Shown: positions 1 through 9,950, counted from the stretch's first letter. The stretch: 64,000 nucleotides of DNA from Nitrospinota bacterium (GCA_016208975.1 JACQXA010000001.1:251834-315833); one strand, 5' to 3'. Notes: generated from the sequence alone by a model not told the origin. Program-made: numbers and translations.

Positions 1-115
1 GAGGGCCCTCATACATAAGCTCCATGCAGTCTCCGGTTTGCGCCTCCCATTCGTAATAGTGGCGGAGCAGGCGGCGTAGATTTAGAAGGCTGTTTATTTT
101 TTCAGAGCCGGACAT
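1..115 (-). CDS. Unrecognised protein, N-terminal fragment (cut by window edge)
   Basis: An ATG at 115 opens a frame that stays open to the left edge, giving 38 codons beginning MSGSEKINSLLNLRRLLRHY. It overlaps the last 14 bases of the upstream radical SAM gene, the same coupling seen throughout this operon, so it is probably the next cistron. The visible part is basic and helical-looking with no recognisable motif. No function can be given from 38 residues; the overlap is the main support that it is real. Confidence 0.5.
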   Translation of the reverse strand, partial: MSGSEKINSLLNLRRLLRHYYEWEAQTGDCMELMYEGP

Positions 116-1163
116 AGTACATGTATTTCTTGCCGCACAAACCAGTGGCCTCGTTGCATGAGCTGTCGAACTGGCAATCATCGCAAATGCCGCCGCAATG
201 TTTTTTGTACATGGAGCAAAGGATGCGGCACCCGCCACCGCAGATATCCTGTTTCTCGCAACTCATACATCCGGGAAGCCCGTGGAATGACACATCCCGC
301 ACAGAGCTGAAACCCGGCCCATCGCGCCATATCTGGGGCAAACGCCGTTTGCGCAGGTTGCCGCACCTGTTTTCCGGAAAGATCAATGGATTGCATGGCG
401 TCACATCGCCATTGGGGCGGATGAAACAGTATGTGCGGCCCGGGATGCATCCGGCATGGGGATAAAAGAAACCGTCGCTGTTGGACTGGCGCCTGGCCCC
501 ATCGGCCACGCCACGGGTTAGTTCCGCCTCCTCGGCCACAAGATTCCGGAATCCGCTTTCGGTAAGGTACAGATCCGCCCGGTTCTGCCGCCCGGCGCCG
601 GTTGGCACAAACCTCATGTATAAAATCTCCCTGGCCCCGGAGCCCGCCACTTCCATCCGCGTTTTTTGCATGATGGGGGCGTTCCTGGCGGTTAACGTCA
701 TGGAGGCTATTACATATATCCCCGCGTCGGTCAGCTGACGTATCGCCGCCAGCGCCTTGGCGTGGTTGCCATGCCCGCGCATGTAGTTGTGGCTCTCCTC
801 GTCTCCGTCAACGCTCACCTCCACGCATTCCACACCCAGTTCTTTAAGCCGTTGGGCTTTTTCCTGGCGCATGAGGACGCCGTTGGTGGTGAGTGTCACG
901 CCAAGGCCGCTTTTTCTGGCCCCTTCTACGATAGTGAGAAAATCCTTCCGGAAAAATGGCTCGCCCCCGCCGAAATAAATCTCGTGCGCTCCCATGGCCC
1001 CGGCGTCGGATACTATCTCCAGCCACTCCGCCGTACTCATCTCGTCGAACCTTAATGCGTCGTCGTCATACTTGGGAGACGATGCGAAACAATGCCTGCA
1101 CTTGATGTTGCACCGGTAGGTCACCGCCGTCACTAGATTGAAAGGGGCGTTCATCGCGAACAT
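102..1163 (-). CDS. Radical SAM/SPASM domain protein (fifth of the cluster)
   Basis: 353 residues. The radical SAM signature CxxxCxxC lies at C18, C22 and C25 and is followed by a YFGGGEP motif, so it should bind a SAM-coordinating [4Fe-4S] cluster. The C-terminal ~110 residues are very cysteine-rich (GCIPGRTYC, TPC, GCMSC, CGGGCRILC and further cysteines near the end). This fits a SPASM domain with auxiliary clusters, with more cysteines than usual. SPASM proteins typically modify peptides or act in heme pathways (NirJ/AhbD type). It overlaps the nucleotidyltransferase gene by 13 bases. An alternative ATG at 1154 would give an ATGA overlap, but a GGG-rich ribosome site fits 1163 better. The substrate is unknown; the family call is firm. 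Confidence 0.9.
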   Translation of the reverse strand: MFAMNAPFNLVTAVTYRCNIKCRHCFASSPKYDDDALRFDEMSTAEWLEIVSDAGAMGAHEIYFGGGEPFFRKDFLTIVEGARKSGLGVTLTTNGVLMRQEKAQRLKELGVECVEVSVDGDEESHNYMRGHGNHAKALAAIRQLTDAGIYVIASMTLTARNAPIMQKTRMEVAGSGAREILYMRFVPTGAGRQNRADLYLTESGFRNLVAEEAELTRGVADGARRQSNSDGFFYPHAGCIPGRTYCFIRPNGDVTPCNPLIFPENRCGNLRKRRLPQIWRDGPGFSSVRDVSFHGLPGCMSCEKQDICGGGCRILCSMYKKHCGGICDDCQFDSSCNEATGLCGKKYMYYVRL

Positions 1164-1885
1164 GGCATTCGCCCTTTCGCCCAGATATCCTCATAGGCCG
1201 TCAACACATGGGCCAACAGAGTTTCCGGTGAATCGCTCACCGGCTCTTTCAGCCCCATTCTTTTCCTTATGTCCAGCAGATGATGGAACACCCAGGTGTT
1301 CATGGCGGGGAACGCCTCCTCCACCCCGGCGACAGTCTCGGCCCGGGATGAGCGGAGCCTGCCGGTAATCCCTAAAAGAAGCGCCTTGCAGGACTTGAAA
1401 AGCATTTCGTCCAGAAACCGTAACGCCACCGGCGGGTTCATCCTGCCGATCCTTGTGACGGCCCCTCTCAAGTTCCGGAGCCCCACGCCAGCAACCCTCA
1501 TGCTGTCTTCCACCAGAACCGGTTCAGGATGCATGAACGTAACTTGCCCGCCGTATATCAGGTTCGCCACGCTGATCTCTTTTAGAAGGAACGGGTTAAC
1601 AGGACCCAGCGGGTCGTCAATCTCAGTTACAGTCGCCATTGTGATGTCTATCTGGCTGAACGGGTACACTTCACCGGCGGCGTTCTTCAGCTTCGCGCCG
1701 CCCAGCGCCAGTTCCAACCCCGACAGGCCCGGCTCGAACAGCGCGAATATATCCAGATCGCTGTAACCGGGAATAAAATCGCCATACGAAAGGCTTCCGA
1801 ACAGATAAACTGAAACCAGCCCATCCAGGCGTTCATCCAAAAGCTGGCGGAAACGGTCAGTTTCCGCAATAAGGATCCGCCCCAT
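1151..1885 (-). CDS. Pol-beta-type nucleotidyltransferase
   Basis: 244 residues from the ATG at 1885, which has a GGGAGGGGG ribosome site just upstream. A longer frame to 1927 would overlap the previous gene by 71 bases and is less likely. The N-terminal domain has the nucleotidyltransferase signature GSLSYGD followed by SDLDIFAL, giving the two metal-binding aspartates. The C-terminal half is helical and resembles the HEPN-like domain of aminoglycoside or MNT-type transferases. It would move a nucleotide onto an unknown acceptor. It lies between two radical SAM genes and overlaps both. Its place in the operon suggests it activates or tags an intermediate or product; that is inference. Confidence 0.82.
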   Translation of the reverse strand: MGRILIAETDRFRQLLDERLDGLVSVYLFGSLSYGDFIPGYSDLDIFALFEPGLSGLELALGGAKLKNAAGEVYPFSQIDITMATVTEIDDPLGPVNPFLLKEISVANLIYGGQVTFMHPEPVLVEDSMRVAGVGLRNLRGAVTRIGRMNPPVALRFLDEMLFKSCKALLLGITGRLRSSRAETVAGVEEAFPAMNTWVFHHLLDIRKRMGLKEPVSDSPETLLAHVLTAYEDIWAKGRMPCSR

Positions 1886-2867
1886 CAAGCCCCCTCCCTT
1901 CCAACATAGCATGCGCCCTGCATCCACCGCATAACCTCATCCAGCGGCATGATGAACATGGCCCTTGGCTTTCATTTCTGCGCCGGAGCCGCCACAAAAG
2001 TGGTGAATCCATCCAGATACGCCACAGGGATGTTTCAAAAACGTTGCCCAATGTTTCAGGAATCTTTCTACAAGGGTAAACGGAGCCATCCTCCATCACC
2101 GTAACGCCGCCCACCCCCGCAGAACAGCCTTTCATGGCGAAGCCCGCTTTTTGTGGAAATTCTTTTAAACCCCGCGCCCCCGCCAGGGCCACGTAAAACA
2201 ATGGGTCGTTCATCCACACCATAAACCCGTCAACCCGTTTCCTCGCCATCCGCTCCACCACCCTGCCCCATTCAGCGCCGCTCAACCCTGGCATGGCCCC
2301 GGCTCCCATGGCTATGTGCCGATGGAGACCCAGCGGCAGATTTTCTTCCCGCGCCCACCCGGTGAAATTCTCAAGCTCATCGGCGTTTACCGCCGTTACA
2401 GTGGCGGCAATGGAAACTTTTACGCCAGATGACCGCAAGACCGATATTGCGCTCATTGCCCGGGCATAACTGCCCTTGCCCCGGATGGCGTCGTTAACCG
2501 GTTTAAAACCTTCCAAAGATATCTGAACGGACTCCACCCCCAGCCCGCGAAGCCTTGCGGCGATATCTCTATCTATTCCCGCCCCGGATGAAAGCAGGCT
2601 CCACCGGCTATTGGTTGAATTGATAACCTCCGCCAGTTCCCATATCCCCGCGTACGCCAGCGGATCGCCCCCGGTTACGTTGAACGTGAGCTGGCCGAAA
2701 TGGGGTTCAAAATCCACCACCGTCTGGCGGATAAATGATTCCCAGGCGGAAACTGGCGCGTCAGCTCCTTCCCAGCCATCCTGATAGCAATGGGCGCACC
2801 GGGACTGGCATTTGCGAGTCAGGTGCGTCTGTATAAAAAAGCCCATATATCCCCCCGCCCCGTTCAT
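1857..2867 (-). CDS. Radical SAM/SPASM domain protein (fourth of the cluster)
   Basis: 336 residues with CxxxCxxC at C20, C24 and C27 and a TGGDP motif for SAM binding. The C-terminus reads as a SPASM domain: GCSAG, VYPC, then CSSCRWMRLCGGCRAHA and a final DPYC. This arrangement is close to that of the heme-related NirJ/AhbD type and of peptide-modifying SPASM proteins. A second possible start (MGFF, at 2846) has a better GGGGGG ribosome site, so the true protein may be 7 residues shorter. A 45-base gap to the previous gene is the largest in the operon. The fold is certain; the substrate is unknown. Confidence 0.9.
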   Translation of the reverse strand: MNGAGGYMGFFIQTHLTRKCQSRCAHCYQDGWEGADAPVSAWESFIRQTVVDFEPHFGQLTFNVTGGDPLAYAGIWELAEVINSTNSRWSLLSSGAGIDRDIAARLRGLGVESVQISLEGFKPVNDAIRGKGSYARAMSAISVLRSSGVKVSIAATVTAVNADELENFTGWAREENLPLGLHRHIAMGAGAMPGLSGAEWGRVVERMARKRVDGFMVWMNDPLFYVALAGARGLKEFPQKAGFAMKGCSAGVGGVTVMEDGSVYPCRKIPETLGNVFETSLWRIWMDSPLLWRLRRRNESQGPCSSCRWMRLCGGCRAHAMLEGRGLDGADPYCGN

Positions 2868-2912
2868 GTCACTTTTCCAGGCATGTCATTTTAATATTTA
2901 TAGCATAATTTT

Positions 2913-3803
2913 TTACTGATAATAACAATAAAACATGCAACCGGGGCATTGGCCCTCGCCAGCGCCGGATGACGCCGCTTCAAAGCCCCGGGATTGGATC
3001 GCCTTATTCAATCCATCCTCAATCGCGTTGGCTGTGGCGGCGAAGGCCCAGCACGGGCTAACGCCGCCATTTGGGAATAAGGTGAATATACGTCCGCCTG
3101 CTTTGCATTTCCCATGTCGGCGGAATCCCTTCTCTACATAATCAGCGGCGGCCTGGTAATATTCAGCCCCGTTACAGTTCAGCGGATGGTTTAAGCGGGC
3201 AAGATTTTTCAGGGTCGACGCCATTTTGGCGAATTGTCCAGCGTTCCGTTGCCATGTCTTGGCTCCCCCGAATGCGGGAGCCCACGGCTGAACCCCCACG
3301 CTATGAACCCCCAGCGTTTCCGCCAGCTCGAATACTGCGTTTATTTCATCCATGTTTGCTGGCATTAACGTGAAAGAAAGGCTCACCCTTGATGAGGGCT
3401 GGCTTTCACGTATTCGCTTGATTCCCTCTACCGCCCGTTTCCAGGCCCCTTTAACACCCCGGATACGGTCATGTACTCTTTCGTTTCCGTCTATGGATAC
3501 TGATATGTCTTGTATCCCCTCAAGTTCCTCCGCTCTTTTCGCTGTAACAGTGGTTGCGTTTGTACTTAGGCGTATTTCCAGCCCCTCTTCCAGCATGGGC
3601 GCAACCACAGCGCGCAAATCTTTTCGGGCAAATGGCTCTCCGCCGGTGACATAGACCACCTTTACGCCCAGCTCCGCCAATTGCAGGGCCATGCCCTTCA
3701 CGGCGCTTATAGGGAAATCCTCACCATCCGGCCCGCTATGGGCGCACATGGAGCATTTGAGGGTGCATCTGGAAGTGATCATAAAGATCGCTTTTCGCGC
3801 CAT
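2913..3803 (-). CDS. Radical SAM protein with short cysteine-rich C-terminus (third of the cluster)
   Basis: 296 residues, the shortest radical SAM enzyme of the cluster. CxxxCxxC is at C13, C17 and C20, followed by VTGGEPF. The C-terminal region carries a reduced cysteine set (KCKAGG, SPCWAF, CPGCMFYC), more like a Twitch or truncated SPASM domain than a full one. It may therefore bind only one auxiliary cluster. It follows the 477-residue radical SAM gene by 20 bases and is co-oriented with the rest of the operon. Its substrate cannot be told from sequence. Confidence 0.88.
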   Translation of the reverse strand: MARKAIFMITSRCTLKCSMCAHSGPDGEDFPISAVKGMALQLAELGVKVVYVTGGEPFARKDLRAVVAPMLEEGLEIRLSTNATTVTAKRAEELEGIQDISVSIDGNERVHDRIRGVKGAWKRAVEGIKRIRESQPSSRVSLSFTLMPANMDEINAVFELAETLGVHSVGVQPWAPAFGGAKTWQRNAGQFAKMASTLKNLARLNHPLNCNGAEYYQAAADYVEKGFRRHGKCKAGGRIFTLFPNGGVSPCWAFAATANAIEDGLNKAIQSRGFEAASSGAGEGQCPGCMFYCYYQ

Positions 3804-3823
3804 AACGGTATTTTAATAACTAC

Positions 3824-5257
3824 TCATCCACCGGGGCAGGTAGCCACAGCATCGGAAAACTGGCTGTAAGCGCCGCCACCCTTCCGGGCAAGATAAGCCA
3901 CCATAAGCGGAGCGGTTTCCACGGTTGGCTCCATACGCCACTGGCCGCCTTGAGCCATGCGCAGGGCGAATCGGCGGATTTGGCATGGCCACCCTTCAAC
4001 GGGTGGGCCTTTTGTGGCAAGCAGGCCCAGGAAGTGGGCGAATATGTTTTTTTTCAGTTCACACCGGGCAGGGTCTGTAGGGCTGTTATCAATCCGTTGC
4101 GGATAGGTGACCCTGGCGGGGCAATCGCCGGCGCAATGCCATTTGAGCGCGCAGGATGCGCAATGGGGAAGGTTTTCTACAACCCGTTTCCCCAGGGCGT
4201 TCAACAGCGCGCCATGCCACATCAATCCTTCTCCGGTCACGTCCCCCACGCCAAAAACCCCTGCCATTGGATGGGCGCGGGAACATGCCTCCAGGCATCT
4301 GCTCACCAACCCGTCATGGGTCACATACACGTTTCCCGTTACGGCCCCGCAGTAGGCTTCCGTCATGGCCTGCGGCGACACTCCTGGGAAACTCACCGCC
4401 AGCCCCAGTTCCCATGCCGTGTCCAGCGCCTCGCGGAACCGGGCCTGCGCGCGTTCATTATGGTCTATGCCAGCGGGCCCAGCCCGCCCGGCGGACACCA
4501 CGGGGCCAAGATGTATCTCCCGGGTCTTGGCCGCCCCGGCGAAAAACCTTATCGTATCCGGCAGGCGGTCCAGCGTATCCCCCGCCACTGTGGACACGAT
4601 GGCGTAATTTTCAAACCCCGCCTCATCGAACGCCTGGAGGGTTTTCATCACCCTATCGAAAGACCCGGCCCCGGTGGATGTTTTCCGGTGAGCGTTATGT
4701 ATCTGTTCCGGCCCGTCCAGCGCCAGCGATACCAGTTGGAACTTTTCCATTATCTCGTCCCGGATTTTTTGGCTGAACAGACCGTTGGTGGCTATGCCGA
4801 ACCCAACCGAGGCGCCGATCTCCGCCGCCCGGAGTCTGGCGCGTTCCATGACTGATTGGATCAACCCCCATGCCTGGGTGGGTTCGCCGCCTCCATGGAA
4901 ATAAAGCTCTATCCGCTCCGCCCCGCTCTTTTCAGCCGATTGCGCCACATGGTCCACAGCCCAATTGGCCAGCCATTCAGGCATGGCCAGGTCCGCCTCG
5001 CCGCCGTTGGCGTAACAATAAGAGCAACGAAGGTTGCATCTCGTGGTCGGAATCAAGGTGGCCCGTTCAGCCCGAAGTGTTTCCGAACGCTCTGGCGCCG
5101 GGGCCAGCGGGGCTACGCTTCGCGCAAACCAGTTGGCCGCCTCTATCTGAACAGAGATTGGGACGGTTGAAGAAACGGACAATATTCCGCCAGAAATGGG
5201 CTCGTAAAAGACAACGCCCCTTTCCCATTCCATCCGGAACACATTCTTATGGCTCAT
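3824..5257 (-). CDS. Radical SAM/SPASM protein with N-terminal extension (second of the cluster)
   Basis: 477 residues, the longest enzyme here. About 65 residues precede the radical SAM core (C74, C78, C81, then FHGGGEP), a layout seen in peptide-modifying SPASM maturases and anaerobic sulfatase maturase-like enzymes. The FHGGGEP form of the SAM motif also fits that group. SPASM cysteines follow (AYCGAV, SRCLEAC, HCASCALKWHCAGDC, ARC). An ~80-residue tail after the SPASM domain is rich in small residues and ends CPGG. The gene overlaps the kinase gene by 11 bases. Whether the N-terminal extension is a peptide-recognition (RRE-like) domain needs a structure prediction. Confidence 0.88.
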   Translation of the reverse strand: MSHKNVFRMEWERGVVFYEPISGGILSVSSTVPISVQIEAANWFARSVAPLAPAPERSETLRAERATLIPTTRCNLRCSYCYANGGEADLAMPEWLANWAVDHVAQSAEKSGAERIELYFHGGGEPTQAWGLIQSVMERARLRAAEIGASVGFGIATNGLFSQKIRDEIMEKFQLVSLALDGPEQIHNAHRKTSTGAGSFDRVMKTLQAFDEAGFENYAIVSTVAGDTLDRLPDTIRFFAGAAKTREIHLGPVVSAGRAGPAGIDHNERAQARFREALDTAWELGLAVSFPGVSPQAMTEAYCGAVTGNVYVTHDGLVSRCLEACSRAHPMAGVFGVGDVTGEGLMWHGALLNALGKRVVENLPHCASCALKWHCAGDCPARVTYPQRIDNSPTDPARCELKKNIFAHFLGLLATKGPPVEGWPCQIRRFALRMAQGGQWRMEPTVETAPLMVAYLARKGGGAYSQFSDAVATCPGG

Positions 5258-5780
5258 GCGCCGCTACCACTTTCGTGTCTGTGTTAAGAGCCGCTTCCAC
5301 AAGCCGGTAAAGCTCTTCATGAATTGGGCCGTGGTTTGCTATTGCCACATCCGCCGGCCATTGAGCCCATTCGGTTTCGCTGGAATGGATGTCGTCCACC
5401 CCCAAAGAAAACTCCTGCCCGCGTTCCGAAAGCCTGCGGACGCATTCCGCCAGTGGAGCCTCCACCCGCCAGAAAACAAAGCCCCTCGCCCGTAACAGCT
5501 CCATATCCGGTTTGAATCGCGCCGCGTCCACAACCACTGGCCGCCCAGCCGGGACGCGCCGCAACGCCGCGGACATCCAGACCGACTCATCCAGCGCGCG
5601 CATGGCGTCGGTCACCTGGTTCATGACGGTTTTCGACTGGGAGCCGAACAGTATCCCGCACACCTCCCGGCACACGGTTCCTGTGCTGGCGATGGCATAG
5701 CGGTAATGTTCCGCCAGGTACCCGGCCACCGTGGTTTTCCCCGCGCCGGAGCGGCCCGTGAGGGCGATGTTTGGATACAT
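5247..5780 (-). CDS. Small P-loop kinase of the nucleoside/dephospho-CoA kinase type
   Basis: 177 residues beginning with a clear Walker A motif, GRSGAGKT at residues 9-16, after a short beta strand. VVVDAARF near residue 90 fits the strand and acidic residue of a kinase core, and R-rich segments after it (VRRLSERG) resemble a lid. Length and layout match small-molecule kinases (AMP/CMP kinase, dephospho-CoA kinase), but no specific family signature is visible. It begins 9 bases after the Cys-rich peptide gene and overlaps the next radical SAM gene, so it belongs to the operon. It probably phosphorylates a small molecule or peptide in the same pathway; this is inference. Confidence 0.75.
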   Translation of the reverse strand: MYPNIALTGRSGAGKTTVAGYLAEHYRYAIASTGTVCREVCGILFGSQSKTVMNQVTDAMRALDESVWMSAALRRVPAGRPVVVDAARFKPDMELLRARGFVFWRVEAPLAECVRRLSERGQEFSLGVDDIHSSETEWAQWPADVAIANHGPIHEELYRLVEAALNTDTKVVAAHEP

Positions 5781-5789
5781 CGTTGATTA

Positions 5790-5975
5790 TTAATCCGCCT
5801 TTTGCGGCTGGTCCATTTCCGGCCCGGTGGAAGCGCACACCTTGCAATGGCAATGGGTGCAAAGGAAATCGGCCTCCTCGCGGCCCGACATGTCTGTCTT
5901 CAAATATCCGAGAAGCTCTTTTAGCTTGGCCCTGTCATCATCGGTGAGGCCGTTCAGTTTGTTATCGTTTCCCAT
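5790..5975 (-). CDS. 61-residue peptide with C-terminal CxxCxCxxC motif (candidate precursor or metal-binding peptide)
   Basis: 61 residues. The first ~35 are charged and helical-looking, like a leader (GLTDDDRAKLKELLGYLKTD). The last third holds C39, C42, C44 and C47 interleaved with H41 and H43, then a short hydrophilic tail (ASTGPEMDQPQKAD). The ATG at 5975 overlaps the DUF362 gene by 22 bases, and the kinase gene starts 9 bases after its stop, so it is translated within the operon. A leader-like part plus a compact Cys core beside five radical SAM enzymes fits a RiPP precursor. A small zinc or iron-sulfur protein is the main alternative. I do not recognise the family. Confidence 0.7.
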   Translation of the reverse strand: MGNDNKLNGLTDDDRAKLKELLGYLKTDMSGREEADFLCTHCHCKVCASTGPEMDQPQKAD

Positions 5976-6997
5976 ACGATCTCCTTCATTCCGAAGAATT
6001 TTTCACCACTTGCCATCTGGTTGCTCCAAAGTTTCCAAACGCCGCTCTCCAGCGGTTTTTCACGCTCCATAAGCTCCACGCTGGCCCTGTCCGCCATGAA
6101 GGGGTCGGCGGCGATTACAAAACCGGCGTCAGTGTAAACAGGGGCGTGGGTGAACGAGGCGCAATCGCACTGGGGGGTTACATCCACCACACCGTTAATG
6201 AAAACCGAGCGGCGCCCGGCCAGAAACGCGGCGGCGGCCTCGGTAAGCCTGTGCGAAAAGTTTTCCAGCTGGCCGTCGTCCAGGCTGTAAACCCCTTGCC
6301 TGCATGGCCCCATGCAATGGCAACAACCGGTGCAGGCTGTGTCCAGCCGCCGTATTGCTCCATCAACCAATTCCAAAGCCCCATGCCCACACGTTTTCAG
6401 ACATTCGCCGCAGGCGGAGCATTTGGAGGTATCCATCAACGGCTTGGTGGCCCCATGTATGGCGGCTTTACCCGCCGAAGACATGAGCCCCATCCCAACG
6501 TTCTTTATGGCCCCAGCCACTCCCGTGAACCCGTGAAGGGTTATGTGGGAAAGAACAGCCATGTGCCGCACACCCTGTAAAGACCCGGCGCCCATGTAAG
6601 CCGGGCCTCCGTTCACCGGGGGCAGGGCTACGCCAAACTCCCCCCGCATGCCGTCGGAGATTATCAACGGGCACCCAATGGAGTCTGCGGTGAAACCATG
6701 CGCCGAGGCGGTCTCCAGATAACCCACCGCCGTGCTTCGGGAGCCTTTGTACAAAACCACGGTGTCTGTCGCGAAAGGTTTCATACCGGCGTTTCTGGCC
6801 GCATCCGCCACTGCCCGCACATAAAGAGGCCTTAAATATCTTGTGGCGCCCCTTTCCCCGAAATGACACTTGATGGCCAAAAGTTCGCCGGGAGCGCCCC
6901 AAGAACGGAATACCAGCTCCAGCTTTTTCCTGATGATGTCCACGGTGGATACATACGGCTGGGTCGTGGCCGGTATGTGGCTTAAATTTACGGTCAC
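5954..6997 (-). CDS. DUF362 protein with 4Fe-4S ferredoxin motifs
   Basis: 347 residues from a GTG at 6997 that overlaps the preceding stop by four bases. The N-terminal ~195 residues have the DUF362 layout (KCHFGERGATRYLRP, then ITLHGFTGVAGAIKNVGMG). Near residues 200-240 there are two cysteine clusters, CSACGECLKTC and CTGCCHCMGPC, as in a 2[4Fe-4S] ferredoxin, though the second one is modified by an extra Cys. A further CDC follows near residue 280. DUF362 proteins are poorly understood but are often electron carriers next to redox enzymes. Here the likely job is to supply electrons to the radical SAM enzymes of the operon. The domain call is firm; the role is inferred. Confidence 0.88.
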   Translation of the reverse strand: MTVNLSHIPATTQPYVSTVDIIRKKLELVFRSWGAPGELLAIKCHFGERGATRYLRPLYVRAVADAARNAGMKPFATDTVVLYKGSRSTAVGYLETASAHGFTADSIGCPLIISDGMRGEFGVALPPVNGGPAYMGAGSLQGVRHMAVLSHITLHGFTGVAGAIKNVGMGLMSSAGKAAIHGATKPLMDTSKCSACGECLKTCGHGALELVDGAIRRLDTACTGCCHCMGPCRQGVYSLDDGQLENFSHRLTEAAAAFLAGRRSVFINGVVDVTPQCDCASFTHAPVYTDAGFVIAADPFMADRASVELMEREKPLESGVWKLWSNQMASGEKFFGMKEIVWETITN

Positions 6998-8049
6998 GGA
7001 GCTTCCCTTCTTTTATTTAGGACCTGGCACATGGGGTCGCGGCCAAAAAAAGACCCTGTGGCGATGGCGGCGCGGGCGTGGCATCCACCGCAACATTCGG
7101 CCAGATGGGCGCAATCGCCGCAGGCCTCACGGTACGTCTCCGGATCCCTCATCTTTTGCATGAACCCGCTGGCGCGCCATACCTGGGCGAACCTGCCGCC
7201 GGTGACATCTTCCCCCTCCCCGGCGAACTCCGTGAACACCGGGCAATGAAACATGCGCCCCTCTTTGGTGATGTGGCAGAACGACCGGCTGGAGGGGCAA
7301 CCAAGGGTTTTCTCGCCGCTCATGGCGGCTTCGTACAAATTGTCCAGCGCCAACGCTGTTCCGTTATTTGGGGAGATCAACCTTATCTGCTCGCAGGTCT
7401 TTTTGATTATCTCTGGCGAAAGGTCGCCAAAATCCTTCCCGGCGGCGCGGCCTTTGGCCAGCATGGGCTCCACCTTGAACTGGTATGCCCCCAACCCGGA
7501 GCTCAGTTGATAGAGCGCGGCCACCTCCTCCACATTAGAGGAGTCTATGGTCATGTTCACCGTTACCCGGATCCCCCAGGCCACGGCTGAGGCGATATTC
7601 TCCGTCACCTTGTCAAAACATCCGCGGCCCCTTCTTTTATCGTGGGCATCCCTCAAACCGTCCAGGCTAATCTGCGCGCTCCCAAGCCCGGCTTTTTTCA
7701 GCAGGCGCGCCACGTTGGCGGTAAGTAAAACGCCGTTGGTGTCCAGATGGATATTGGCGAATTTTCTACGGTGAGCGGTTTTTATAAAGGTTTCAATATC
7801 CTTTCGGCAAAGAGGCTCACCACCTGTGAAACATATGGCTGTCCGCCCTGGATACAAAACCGAACGTATTATTTCTATGATCGATCCGGTGGAAAGCTCC
7901 GCCCGGCTGTCACGATAGGCGCCAGAGGCTGGAGGGTTGTAGCAATGGGCGCATCGCAGGTTGCAACGGTGGGTAACCTCGATACACACCACGGCAGGCT
8001 CCCGCTTCGCCTCCGCAAACGTTAACACCGAGCCGAGAAAAGGATCCAT
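6994..8049 (-). CDS. Radical SAM/SPASM domain protein (first gene of the cluster)
   Basis: 351 residues if started at the ATG at 8049. An upstream in-frame start at 8118 would lie within the predicted promoter, so the shorter form is preferred. CxxxCxxC falls at about C29, C33 and C36, followed by FTGGEPL. The C-terminus has SPASM cysteines (GCPSSRSFC, FHCPVF, CGDCAHLAECCGGCHARA, DPMC), the arrangement found in NirJ/AhbD-like heme enzymes and peptide maturases. It is first in the operon and shares four bases with the DUF362 start. No heme d1 genes are near, so a heme role is not supported by context. Confidence 0.9.
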   Translation of the reverse strand: MDPFLGSVLTFAEAKREPAVVCIEVTHRCNLRCAHCYNPPASGAYRDSRAELSTGSIIEIIRSVLYPGRTAICFTGGEPLCRKDIETFIKTAHRRKFANIHLDTNGVLLTANVARLLKKAGLGSAQISLDGLRDAHDKRRGRGCFDKVTENIASAVAWGIRVTVNMTIDSSNVEEVAALYQLSSGLGAYQFKVEPMLAKGRAAGKDFGDLSPEIIKKTCEQIRLISPNNGTALALDNLYEAAMSGEKTLGCPSSRSFCHITKEGRMFHCPVFTEFAGEGEDVTGGRFAQVWRASGFMQKMRDPETYREACGDCAHLAECCGGCHARAAIATGSFFGRDPMCQVLNKRREAP

Positions 8050-8103
8050 CCGCCAAAAAGCGCCTCCCGCCAAACATTTGAGCCTCACGCTCCAGCAGGT
8101 ATA

Positions 8104-8132
8104 AATATACAATACCATTTTTATTTATACAA
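8104..8132 (-). promoter_or_regulatory. Predicted sigma70-type promoter of the radical SAM operon
   Basis: Read on the minus strand, TTGTAT and TATATT are separated by 17 bases. They lie about 55 bases upstream of the chosen start of the first radical SAM gene. The -10 matches consensus at 5 of 6 positions and the -35 at 4 of 6. It supports the shorter start at 8049. Prediction only. Confidence 0.5.
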
Positions 8133-8200
8133 CACCTGTTATTTTCCAATGCCCATTCGGACTGACAAGAGGACGTTTTAAGAGGCGTTTTTTATGCTTG

Positions 8201-8229
8201 TTGACCCCGGACGCGCCGCAAATTACAAT
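8201..8229 (+). promoter_or_regulatory. Predicted sigma70-type promoter of the CBS-domain gene
   Basis: TTGACC and TACAAT are separated by exactly 17 bases, with the -10 about 40 bases before the ATG at 8269. Both boxes match consensus at 5 of 6 positions. It diverges from the promoter of the radical SAM operon, so 8133-8200 is a shared upstream region. Confidence 0.65.
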
Positions 8230-8268
8230 TAACGTAGAAATCAAGCTTACATCTTTCCAGAGGGGCTT

Positions 8269-8913: not shown

Positions 8914-8939
8914 ATAACAAACGTTTGAAGGGGCTCACC

Positions 8940-9950
8940 ATGGAGGAGATGAAACCGCCTCCCGGGGCCCGCCCGGCCCTTTATTGGGAGCCGATGGACA
9001 AAGGGCGCGTGCGATGCCGCCTTTGTCCGTTCAACTGCGTTCTTTCCGAATGCAAAACGGGAATTTGCGCCGGAAAGACCAACGTGGGGGGCATACTTTA
9101 CGCCGTAAATTACGCATTCACCACTTCCATCAACCTCGACCCGATGGAAAAAAAGCCTCTCTATCATTTTTACCCCGGCTCTTCCATCCTCTCCATCGGC
9201 CCTAACGGATGTAACATGGCTTGCGACTTCTGCCAGAACTATTACATATCCCAGCAATCGGCCCCGACTGAGCGGCTTATGCCTGAAGAGGCGGCGGCGC
9301 TGGCGGTCTCTTACGGATCTGTGGGACTGGCGTACACCTATGCCGAACCGCTTATCTGGTACGAGTATGTGCTGGACACCTCAAAGGAGGTTCGCAAGGC
9401 CGGGCTCAAGAATGTGCTGGTGACCAACGGCATGATAAACCCGGAGCCGATGATGGAACTTTTGCCCTACACCGACGCCATGAATATAGACATAAAATCA
9501 ATGGATCCGGCGTTTTACAGAAAGGTCTGCCACGGTATGCTGGAGCCTGTGCTGGAGACGGTGAAACTGACTTTCGCCCGGACCCACGTGGAGATAACCA
9601 ATCTGGTCATCCCCGGGTTCAACGACAGCGATGAGATGTTCCACCAGCTTACCGATTTCCTGGCGGACTTGAGCCCCTACATACCACTGCATTTTTCCAG
9701 GTACCATCCGGATTACAAGCTCCACGCTCCGCCTACGCCGTTGGATACGCTGTTGAGGGCGGCCCGTATCGCCTCCGAAAAGCTGAAGTACGTATATATA
9801 GGGAACGTGCATACGGACACCCATAACCAGACCAAATGCCCGTTCTGCGGGAAGATTGTTATTGAACGGGGCGGGTTCAGCGTTTACAGGGTTTCTTTGA
9901 CGAAGGGTAAATGCAACTTCTGCGGGGGAGACACCGGGGTGATAATGTGA
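8940..9950 (+). CDS. amrS: AmmeMemoRadiSam-system radical SAM enzyme
   Basis: 336 residues from the ATG at 8940, which follows a GAAGGGG ribosome site; a TTG at 8925 is also in frame. The N-terminus has a cysteine cluster (CRLCPFNC, then C and GIC) followed by the radical SAM motif CNMACDFC. This is the layout of the PflA-like AmrS family. Two CxxC pairs at the C-terminus (CPFCGK, CNFCGG) form a zinc ribbon present in some members. AmrS is normally encoded with Memo and AMMECR1 proteins; neither is next to it here. The family call is strong; the reaction is not settled. Confidence 0.88.
   Translation: MEEMKPPPGARPALYWEPMDKGRVRCRLCPFNCVLSECKTGICAGKTNVGGILYAVNYAFTTSINLDPMEKKPLYHFYPGSSILSIGPNGCNMACDFCQNYYISQQSAPTERLMPEEAAALAVSYGSVGLAYTYAEPLIWYEYVLDTSKEVRKAGLKNVLVTNGMINPEPMMELLPYTDAMNIDIKSMDPAFYRKVCHGMLEPVLETVKLTFARTHVEITNLVIPGFNDSDEMFHQLTDFLADLSPYIPLHFSRYHPDYKLHAPPTPLDTLLRAARIASEKLKYVYIGNVHTDTHNQTKCPFCGKIVIERGGFSVYRVSLTKGKCNFCGGDTGVIM

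Follow-up and report, generated by a model that had tools for sequence, protein, structure and literature searches.

Among the systems described to date, those closest to the locus analysed here are the SCIFF/ranthipeptide systems represented by CteB and PapB, in which an enzyme with a radical SAM (rSAM) core and a seven-Cys SPASM domain goes together with a short Cys-rich peptide. CteB is the thioether maturase of SCIFF and holds two SPASM clusters, one of them with an open coordination site (PMC8326336). A second related case is mycofactocin (MftA-F), which comprises a small peptide, the rSAM enzyme MftC and the glycosyltransferase MftF, the latter described as glycosylating a RiPP redox cofactor (PMC7491314). 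Further points of comparison are offered by the AmmeMemoRadiSam proteins and by the pathways of heme and heme d1 (AhbC, AhbD, NirJ) and of PQQ. In the limited open-access literature consulted, we found no described biosynthetic cluster with so many rSAM enzymes around one short peptide as the operon presented below.

The window, that is, the whole stretch of 64,000 nucleotides analysed (C1:251834-315833), belongs to a genome of 2.97 Mb in four contigs from the Nitrospinota, a phylum that has been little sampled. Its left end contains the following features:

1..25, minus strand: 5' end of a class I methyltransferase gene, probable start at 25, which runs on to C1:251124
102..1163, minus strand: rSAM_E, 353 aa, radical SAM with full SPASM
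1151..1885, minus strand: Pol-beta-type nucleotidyltransferase, 244 aa (ORF from 1927, preferred start 1885)
1857..2867, minus strand: rSAM_D, 336 aa, radical SAM with SPASM
2913..3803, minus strand: rSAM_C, 296 aa, radical SAM with a shortened (twitch-like) auxiliary Cys set
3824..5257, minus strand: rSAM_B, 477 aa, radical SAM with full SPASM, CteB/PapB-like
5247..5780, minus strand: P-loop kinase, 177 aa, NMP-kinase-like, AAA_18
5790..5975, minus strand: Cys peptide, 61 aa, starting within the end of the DUF362 gene
5954..6997, minus strand: DUF362 (PF04015) protein, 347 aa, GTG start
6994..8118, minus strand: rSAM_A, 374 aa, radical SAM with full SPASM, the first gene of the operon
8119..8268, no strand: intergenic region of 150 bp between the divergent rSAM_A and CBS-domain genes

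The original prediction had described nine complete genes and a cut one, packed on a single strand with overlaps or gaps under 50 bases, and all of them are indeed present: the nine complete genes occupy positions 102-8118 of the minus strand and overlap their neighbours or stand at most 45 bp from them, with junction spacings from -71 to +45 bp. For the nucleotidyltransferase, the start is probably 1885 rather than 1927, the former being preceded by a GGAGGG ribosome-binding site and giving a 29 bp overlap with rSAM_D. An extension of the contig to the left, suggested in the same prediction, revealed that the operon continues past the window edge. After the methyltransferase (nearest NCBIfam model the DVU_1556 family, below cut-off) there are six further genes from C1:251127 down to 244848, which encode, in this order, an AMMECR1-like protein, a GT2 glycosyltransferase, a polysaccharide-deacetylase-like protein, a 475-aa protein with no family match and, by eye, a membrane-bound look, a sixth rSAM/SPASM protein of 509 aa (rSAM_F, with an N-terminus of about 165 aa that is PqqD-like by eye only) and a PHP protein, followed by a gap of ~100 bp. 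The whole string amounts to 16 same-strand genes in ~15 kb with overlaps at most junctions, and rSAM_E stands up to 76 bp apart from the methyltransferase gene. A single weak promoter-like site, a consensus match at 9 of 12 positions, lies on the minus strand at 8168-8141, and the genes from rSAM_A to PHP would form one transcript. Horizontal transfer was also considered, with no clear signal in composition (GC of 57%, compared with 56%).

The five different rSAM proteins that had been announced, at least four of them with SPASM-type Cys, were recovered by Pfam, which finds the Radical_SAM domain in all of rSAM_A-E. The complete seven-Cys SPASM pattern is present in rSAM_A, B and E, rSAM_D has a variant that differs in spacing by one residue, and rSAM_C keeps a shortened, twitch-like set. 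As a separate observation, rSAM_E has extra Cys in the C-terminal tail past its SPASM (CGGICDDCQFDSSCNEATGLC), in a number sufficient for a further Fe-S cluster. Pairwise identity among the six rSAM proteins is 22-33%, which rules out a recent duplication or tandem expansion. With 59 rSAM genes in total, the genome has its densest group precisely here (six in 13.2 kb on a single strand), a density matched in none of 20,000 random placements under a uniform null that ignores the clustering of genes in operons and is thus lenient; two other groups of four rSAM genes occur in the same genome.

None of the encoded proteins reaches a curated NCBIfam cut-off, in agreement with the initial impression that this is not a named cluster. 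The nearest models, all below cut-off, are AhbD and NirJ2 for rSAM_A (far below), the ACGX-system and SbtM peptide maturases for rSAM_D, MftC and StsB for rSAM_E, and a set including PapB, HxsB and SCIFF for rSAM_B. The resemblance to mycofactocin consists of a small peptide, an MftC-like rSAM_E (139.5 bits, cut-off 265) and a GT2 whose nearest model is MftF (114.1 of 280 bits), which may be taken as a weak echo of that system; the differences are that no match to MftB, MftD or MftE appears among the annotated genes and that the operon peptide has no sequence-family match. Against the heme and heme d1 equivalogs the operon rSAM proteins stay at or below 147 of 500 bits, and their top value for PqqE is 116 of 381 bits. 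The AMMECR1-domain protein recalls AmmeMemoRadiSam, but it scores 66.1 bits for protein A (cut-off 99), no Memo gene was seen in the operon and its six rSAM proteins are of the SPASM/twitch type. A gene for an AmmeMemoRadiSam rSAM enzyme does exist at 8925-9950 on the plus strand, divergent from the operon (318.6 bits, cut-off 220). Altogether, every component that can be assigned falls in a known superfamily, and what is unusual is the combination.

Among the rSAM proteins, rSAM_B shares with the ranthipeptide maturases both a CteB-like predicted fold and a complete seven-Cys SPASM. Its AlphaFold model (mean pLDDT 80, pTM 0.81) retrieved CteB from the PDB with Foldseek as the best match (5WHY/5WGG, E 4e-20 to 5e-19), the next protein being anSME at 2e-13, and its three core and seven SPASM Cys are invariant in 37 aligned sequences. 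PapB is its best NCBIfam match, yet with 114.9 of 340 bits, and the SCIFF maturase model gives 84.8 of 425 bits. The operon also departs from the SCIFF/ranthipeptide systems in its peptide, with four Cys in 61 aa where the SCIFF precursor has six in forty-five residues, as well as in its five further rSAM proteins and its nucleotide and glycan enzymes.

When 84,980 species genomes were scanned with six patterns from rSAM_B, 46 relatives with identities of 36% or less emerged; the scan needs an exact 8-residue match, so that true orthologues can be missed, and for 36 of 36 aligned relatives this match lay mainly in the KWHCAGDC motif or close to it. Within 1.5 kb of the rSAM gene, 22 of 42 relatives showed a small ORF in which CxC occurs three or more times, a few of these cases being doubtful (e.g., L014, an antisense ORF); the other 465 kb of these loci contained two ORFs of that kind. 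Nearly all of those near the enzyme gene lie immediately 3' of it, usually overlapping it or right past its stop. In this line, PapB/CteB-like enzymes and CxC-repeat peptides (CSCxxV..., often ending in APVH or VPVH) were observed as directly consecutive genes in Bacteroidota, Verrucomicrobiota, Planctomycetota, Clostridiales, Coriobacteriia and others (L003, L004, L005, L007, L008, L010-L013, L017, L018, L023, L025-L027, L029, L033, L034 and L037). Six of these peptides had no peptide-family match in NCBIfam and four of the enzymes reached no cut-off there, and one phrase searched in the open-access literature returned no paper describing such loci. Their presence in many phyla offers a ready experimental model for rSAM_B-like enzymes. 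These loci, for which no NCBIfam model was matched, have in common with the operon a CxC peptide gene in the neighbourhood of an rSAM_B-type enzyme, but they differ in that the peptide is directly 3', carries several CxC repeats and has another leader, and in that other window genes are missing nearby: one distant DUF362 gene, more than 6 kb off on a Brocadiaceae contig, was the only partner gene found.

The 61-residue Cys peptide proposed in the original prediction can be accepted as a gene because a canonical AAGGAG Shine-Dalgarno stands 5 nt ahead of its ATG, the clearest of the starts checked. Its C-terminal half contains a CxxCxCxxC motif, CTHCHCKVC (...FLCTHCHCKVCASTG...), and it matches no family in NCBIfam or Pfam and no solved structure. 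In 23 other genomes of the phylum no homologue rose above threshold, the best match being a single one of 21 residues at E 0.07. The peptides beside the rSAM_B relatives share a Cys-dense C-terminal half with it, but since it has a single CxC and a different leader, the likeness is an analogy of kind and not homology. We regard it as probably a ribosomal precursor with a leader of about 38 residues and CTHCHCKVCASTGPEMDQPQKAD as the core.

On balance we lean, with some reserve, towards an orphan RiPP-type operon in which the Cys peptide is the probable precursor and rSAM_B the probable crosslinking enzyme. This reading is supported by the packing of 16 same-strand genes and the ribosome-binding site of the peptide, by the CteB-like fold of rSAM_B and the CxC peptides adjoining its relatives, and by the peptide maturases among the nearest models of rSAM_B, D and E. 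Several features count against it: the kinase gene stands between the Cys peptide and rSAM_B; the peptides of the relatives carry CxC repeats and that of the window one CxC; the N-terminal domain of rSAM_B is short in the AlphaFold model (three strands and one helix, beta-beta-beta-alpha); its branch in the tree is long (2.37), with no supported sister and identities of 32% or less in the tree alignment; no operon protein has a Pfam match to an RRE/PqqD domain; and no recognised peptidase or exporter occurs among the genes of the string. The original prediction had left the choice between a modified peptide and a new cofactor; peptide maturation gains from the fold of rSAM_B and from the Cys-rich peptides beside its relatives, and the original interpretation is supported in part.

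Among the partners of the rSAM enzymes, Pfam identified DUF362, an AAA_18-type P-loop and NTP_transf_2, so that the P-loop kinase and the Pol-beta-type transferase originally reported were both found; the kinase matches PHROG 139, a deoxynucleoside monophosphate kinase of phage type (8e-20), and the single-sequence structure model of the nucleotidyltransferase (pLDDT 43) was too poor to be used. The DUF362 protein, which has a two-cluster ferredoxin-like insert (residues 187-234), had been put forward as a candidate electron carrier. This term may be too narrow, since DUF362 and the lactate racemase LarA are members of one Pfam clan (PMC11770544). From such partners one can also build a pathway to a small-molecule cofactor in which no peptide serves as substrate: the rSAM enzymes, kinase, nucleotidyltransferase, methyltransferase and DUF362 protein would make a cofactor of nucleotide- or tetrapyrrole-like type, with the 61-aa protein as a small metal or Fe-S carrier. 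The NMP-kinase-like and Pol-beta genes are in keeping with a product that contains a nucleotide, LarA is a nickel-pincer-nucleotide enzyme, and CxxCxCxxC could bind metal. Moreover, rSAM_A, C and F have their best scores with the heme-pathway models AhbC, AhbD and NirJ2, and their likeness to heme-type enzymes appears equal to that to peptide-type ones, a point also against the RiPP reading; those scores, however, are generic (~95-147 bits against cut-offs of 500-650), and rSAM_B is clearly CteB-like with relatives beside Cys peptides, which makes this pathway an unlikely explanation.

Returning to the RiPP-type operon, rSAM_B would probably form a thioether, or a radical crosslink of another kind, at the core Cys, as CteB and PapB do, and further radical modifications might come from some or all of the remaining enzymes of the rSAM/SPASM or twitch type, with the DUF362/ferredoxin protein as electron supply or partner enzyme. 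The methyltransferase, the MftF-like glycosyltransferase, the NMP-kinase-like protein and the nucleotidyltransferase could then tailor the product, which might be a redox cofactor derived from the peptide and carrying a sugar or a nucleotide, or else a product that handles metal. The peptide as substrate, the type of crosslink, the division of labour among six rSAM enzymes and the product itself are all inferred. A bolder version, which we judge improbable, would be a new class of ribosomal cofactor, with the six rSAM enzymes acting sequentially on one Cys peptide, the excised core being methylated, glycosylated and nucleotidylated, and the LarA-clan DUF362/ferredoxin protein serving them as a partner for redox or metal. 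Should the peptide prove to be the substrate, few of the peptides proposed so far would be as heavily modified by radical chemistry, and the operon would give a concrete biochemical context to DUF362 and AMMECR1, widespread families for which we found no established bacterial function in the limited open-access literature.

How fixed this gene set is was sought in other genomes. In the 23 other genomes of the phylum, where the same family is represented by one other genome (86% complete), rSAM_B, the Cys peptide, DUF362 and rSAM_F had no homologue above thresholds. No orthologous operon appeared in the scan of species genomes with rSAM_B, within its need for an exact 8-residue match, nor in 395 genomes of the Desulfosarcina phylum (rSAM_B and DUF362 queries), 346 of the phylum of L031 (Nitrospirae, DUF362 query) or 392 of that of L045 (Brocadiaceae, rSAM_B query). 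What these three samples yielded were distant relatives of one gene at a time: those of rSAM_B in the Desulfosarcina and Brocadiaceae phyla have identities of 34% or less, and those of DUF362 in the Desulfosarcina and Nitrospirae phyla of 44% or less. Plasmids (rSAM_B identity of 32% or less among the records listed) and viral contigs gave no orthologous operon either, and no second copy was seen in 12 rSAM-containing stretches inspected in the own genome. DUF362 was discarded as a marker of the operon: the DUF362/ferredoxin family is common in the Desulfosarcina phylum (above threshold in 100 of 395 genomes), and none of 20 neighbourhoods of its relatives (L101-L120, mostly ~20 kb) contained the operon rSAM genes. 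As the searches yielded no second copy, co-occurrence of these genes could not be demonstrated, and the set is an orphan within the genomes searched.

Such isolation leaves room for two or more unrelated pathways in one transcription unit, the right half with the Cys peptide and rSAM_A-D and the left half with rSAM_E and F, the methyltransferase, AMMECR1 and the glycan genes, since no second genome links the halves and up to 76 bp separate rSAM_E from the methyltransferase; but rSAM_B, DUF362, the Cys peptide and rSAM_F were not found alone in relatives of the phylum and most junctions overlap, so we consider it quite improbable. Most improbable of all seems a cell-envelope glycoconjugate or lipid pathway, with rSAM enzymes acting on a lipid or sugar and the GT2, deacetylase-like, probable membrane (475 aa) and PHP proteins of the left half building and exporting it. 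It has in its favour these left-half genes and a weak match of rSAM_A and rSAM_E to the tetraether synthase 7TOL, but PqqE and SkfB are matched more strongly, and the Cys peptide, DUF362 and the peptide-maturase fold of rSAM_B are left unexplained.

Elsewhere in the same genome, a same-strand group with four rSAM domains was observed at C4:46000-60000 (L059 4622-11722), accompanied by aminotransferase-, cupin- and HIT-like genes named by eye, which is possibly a further uncharacterised pathway.
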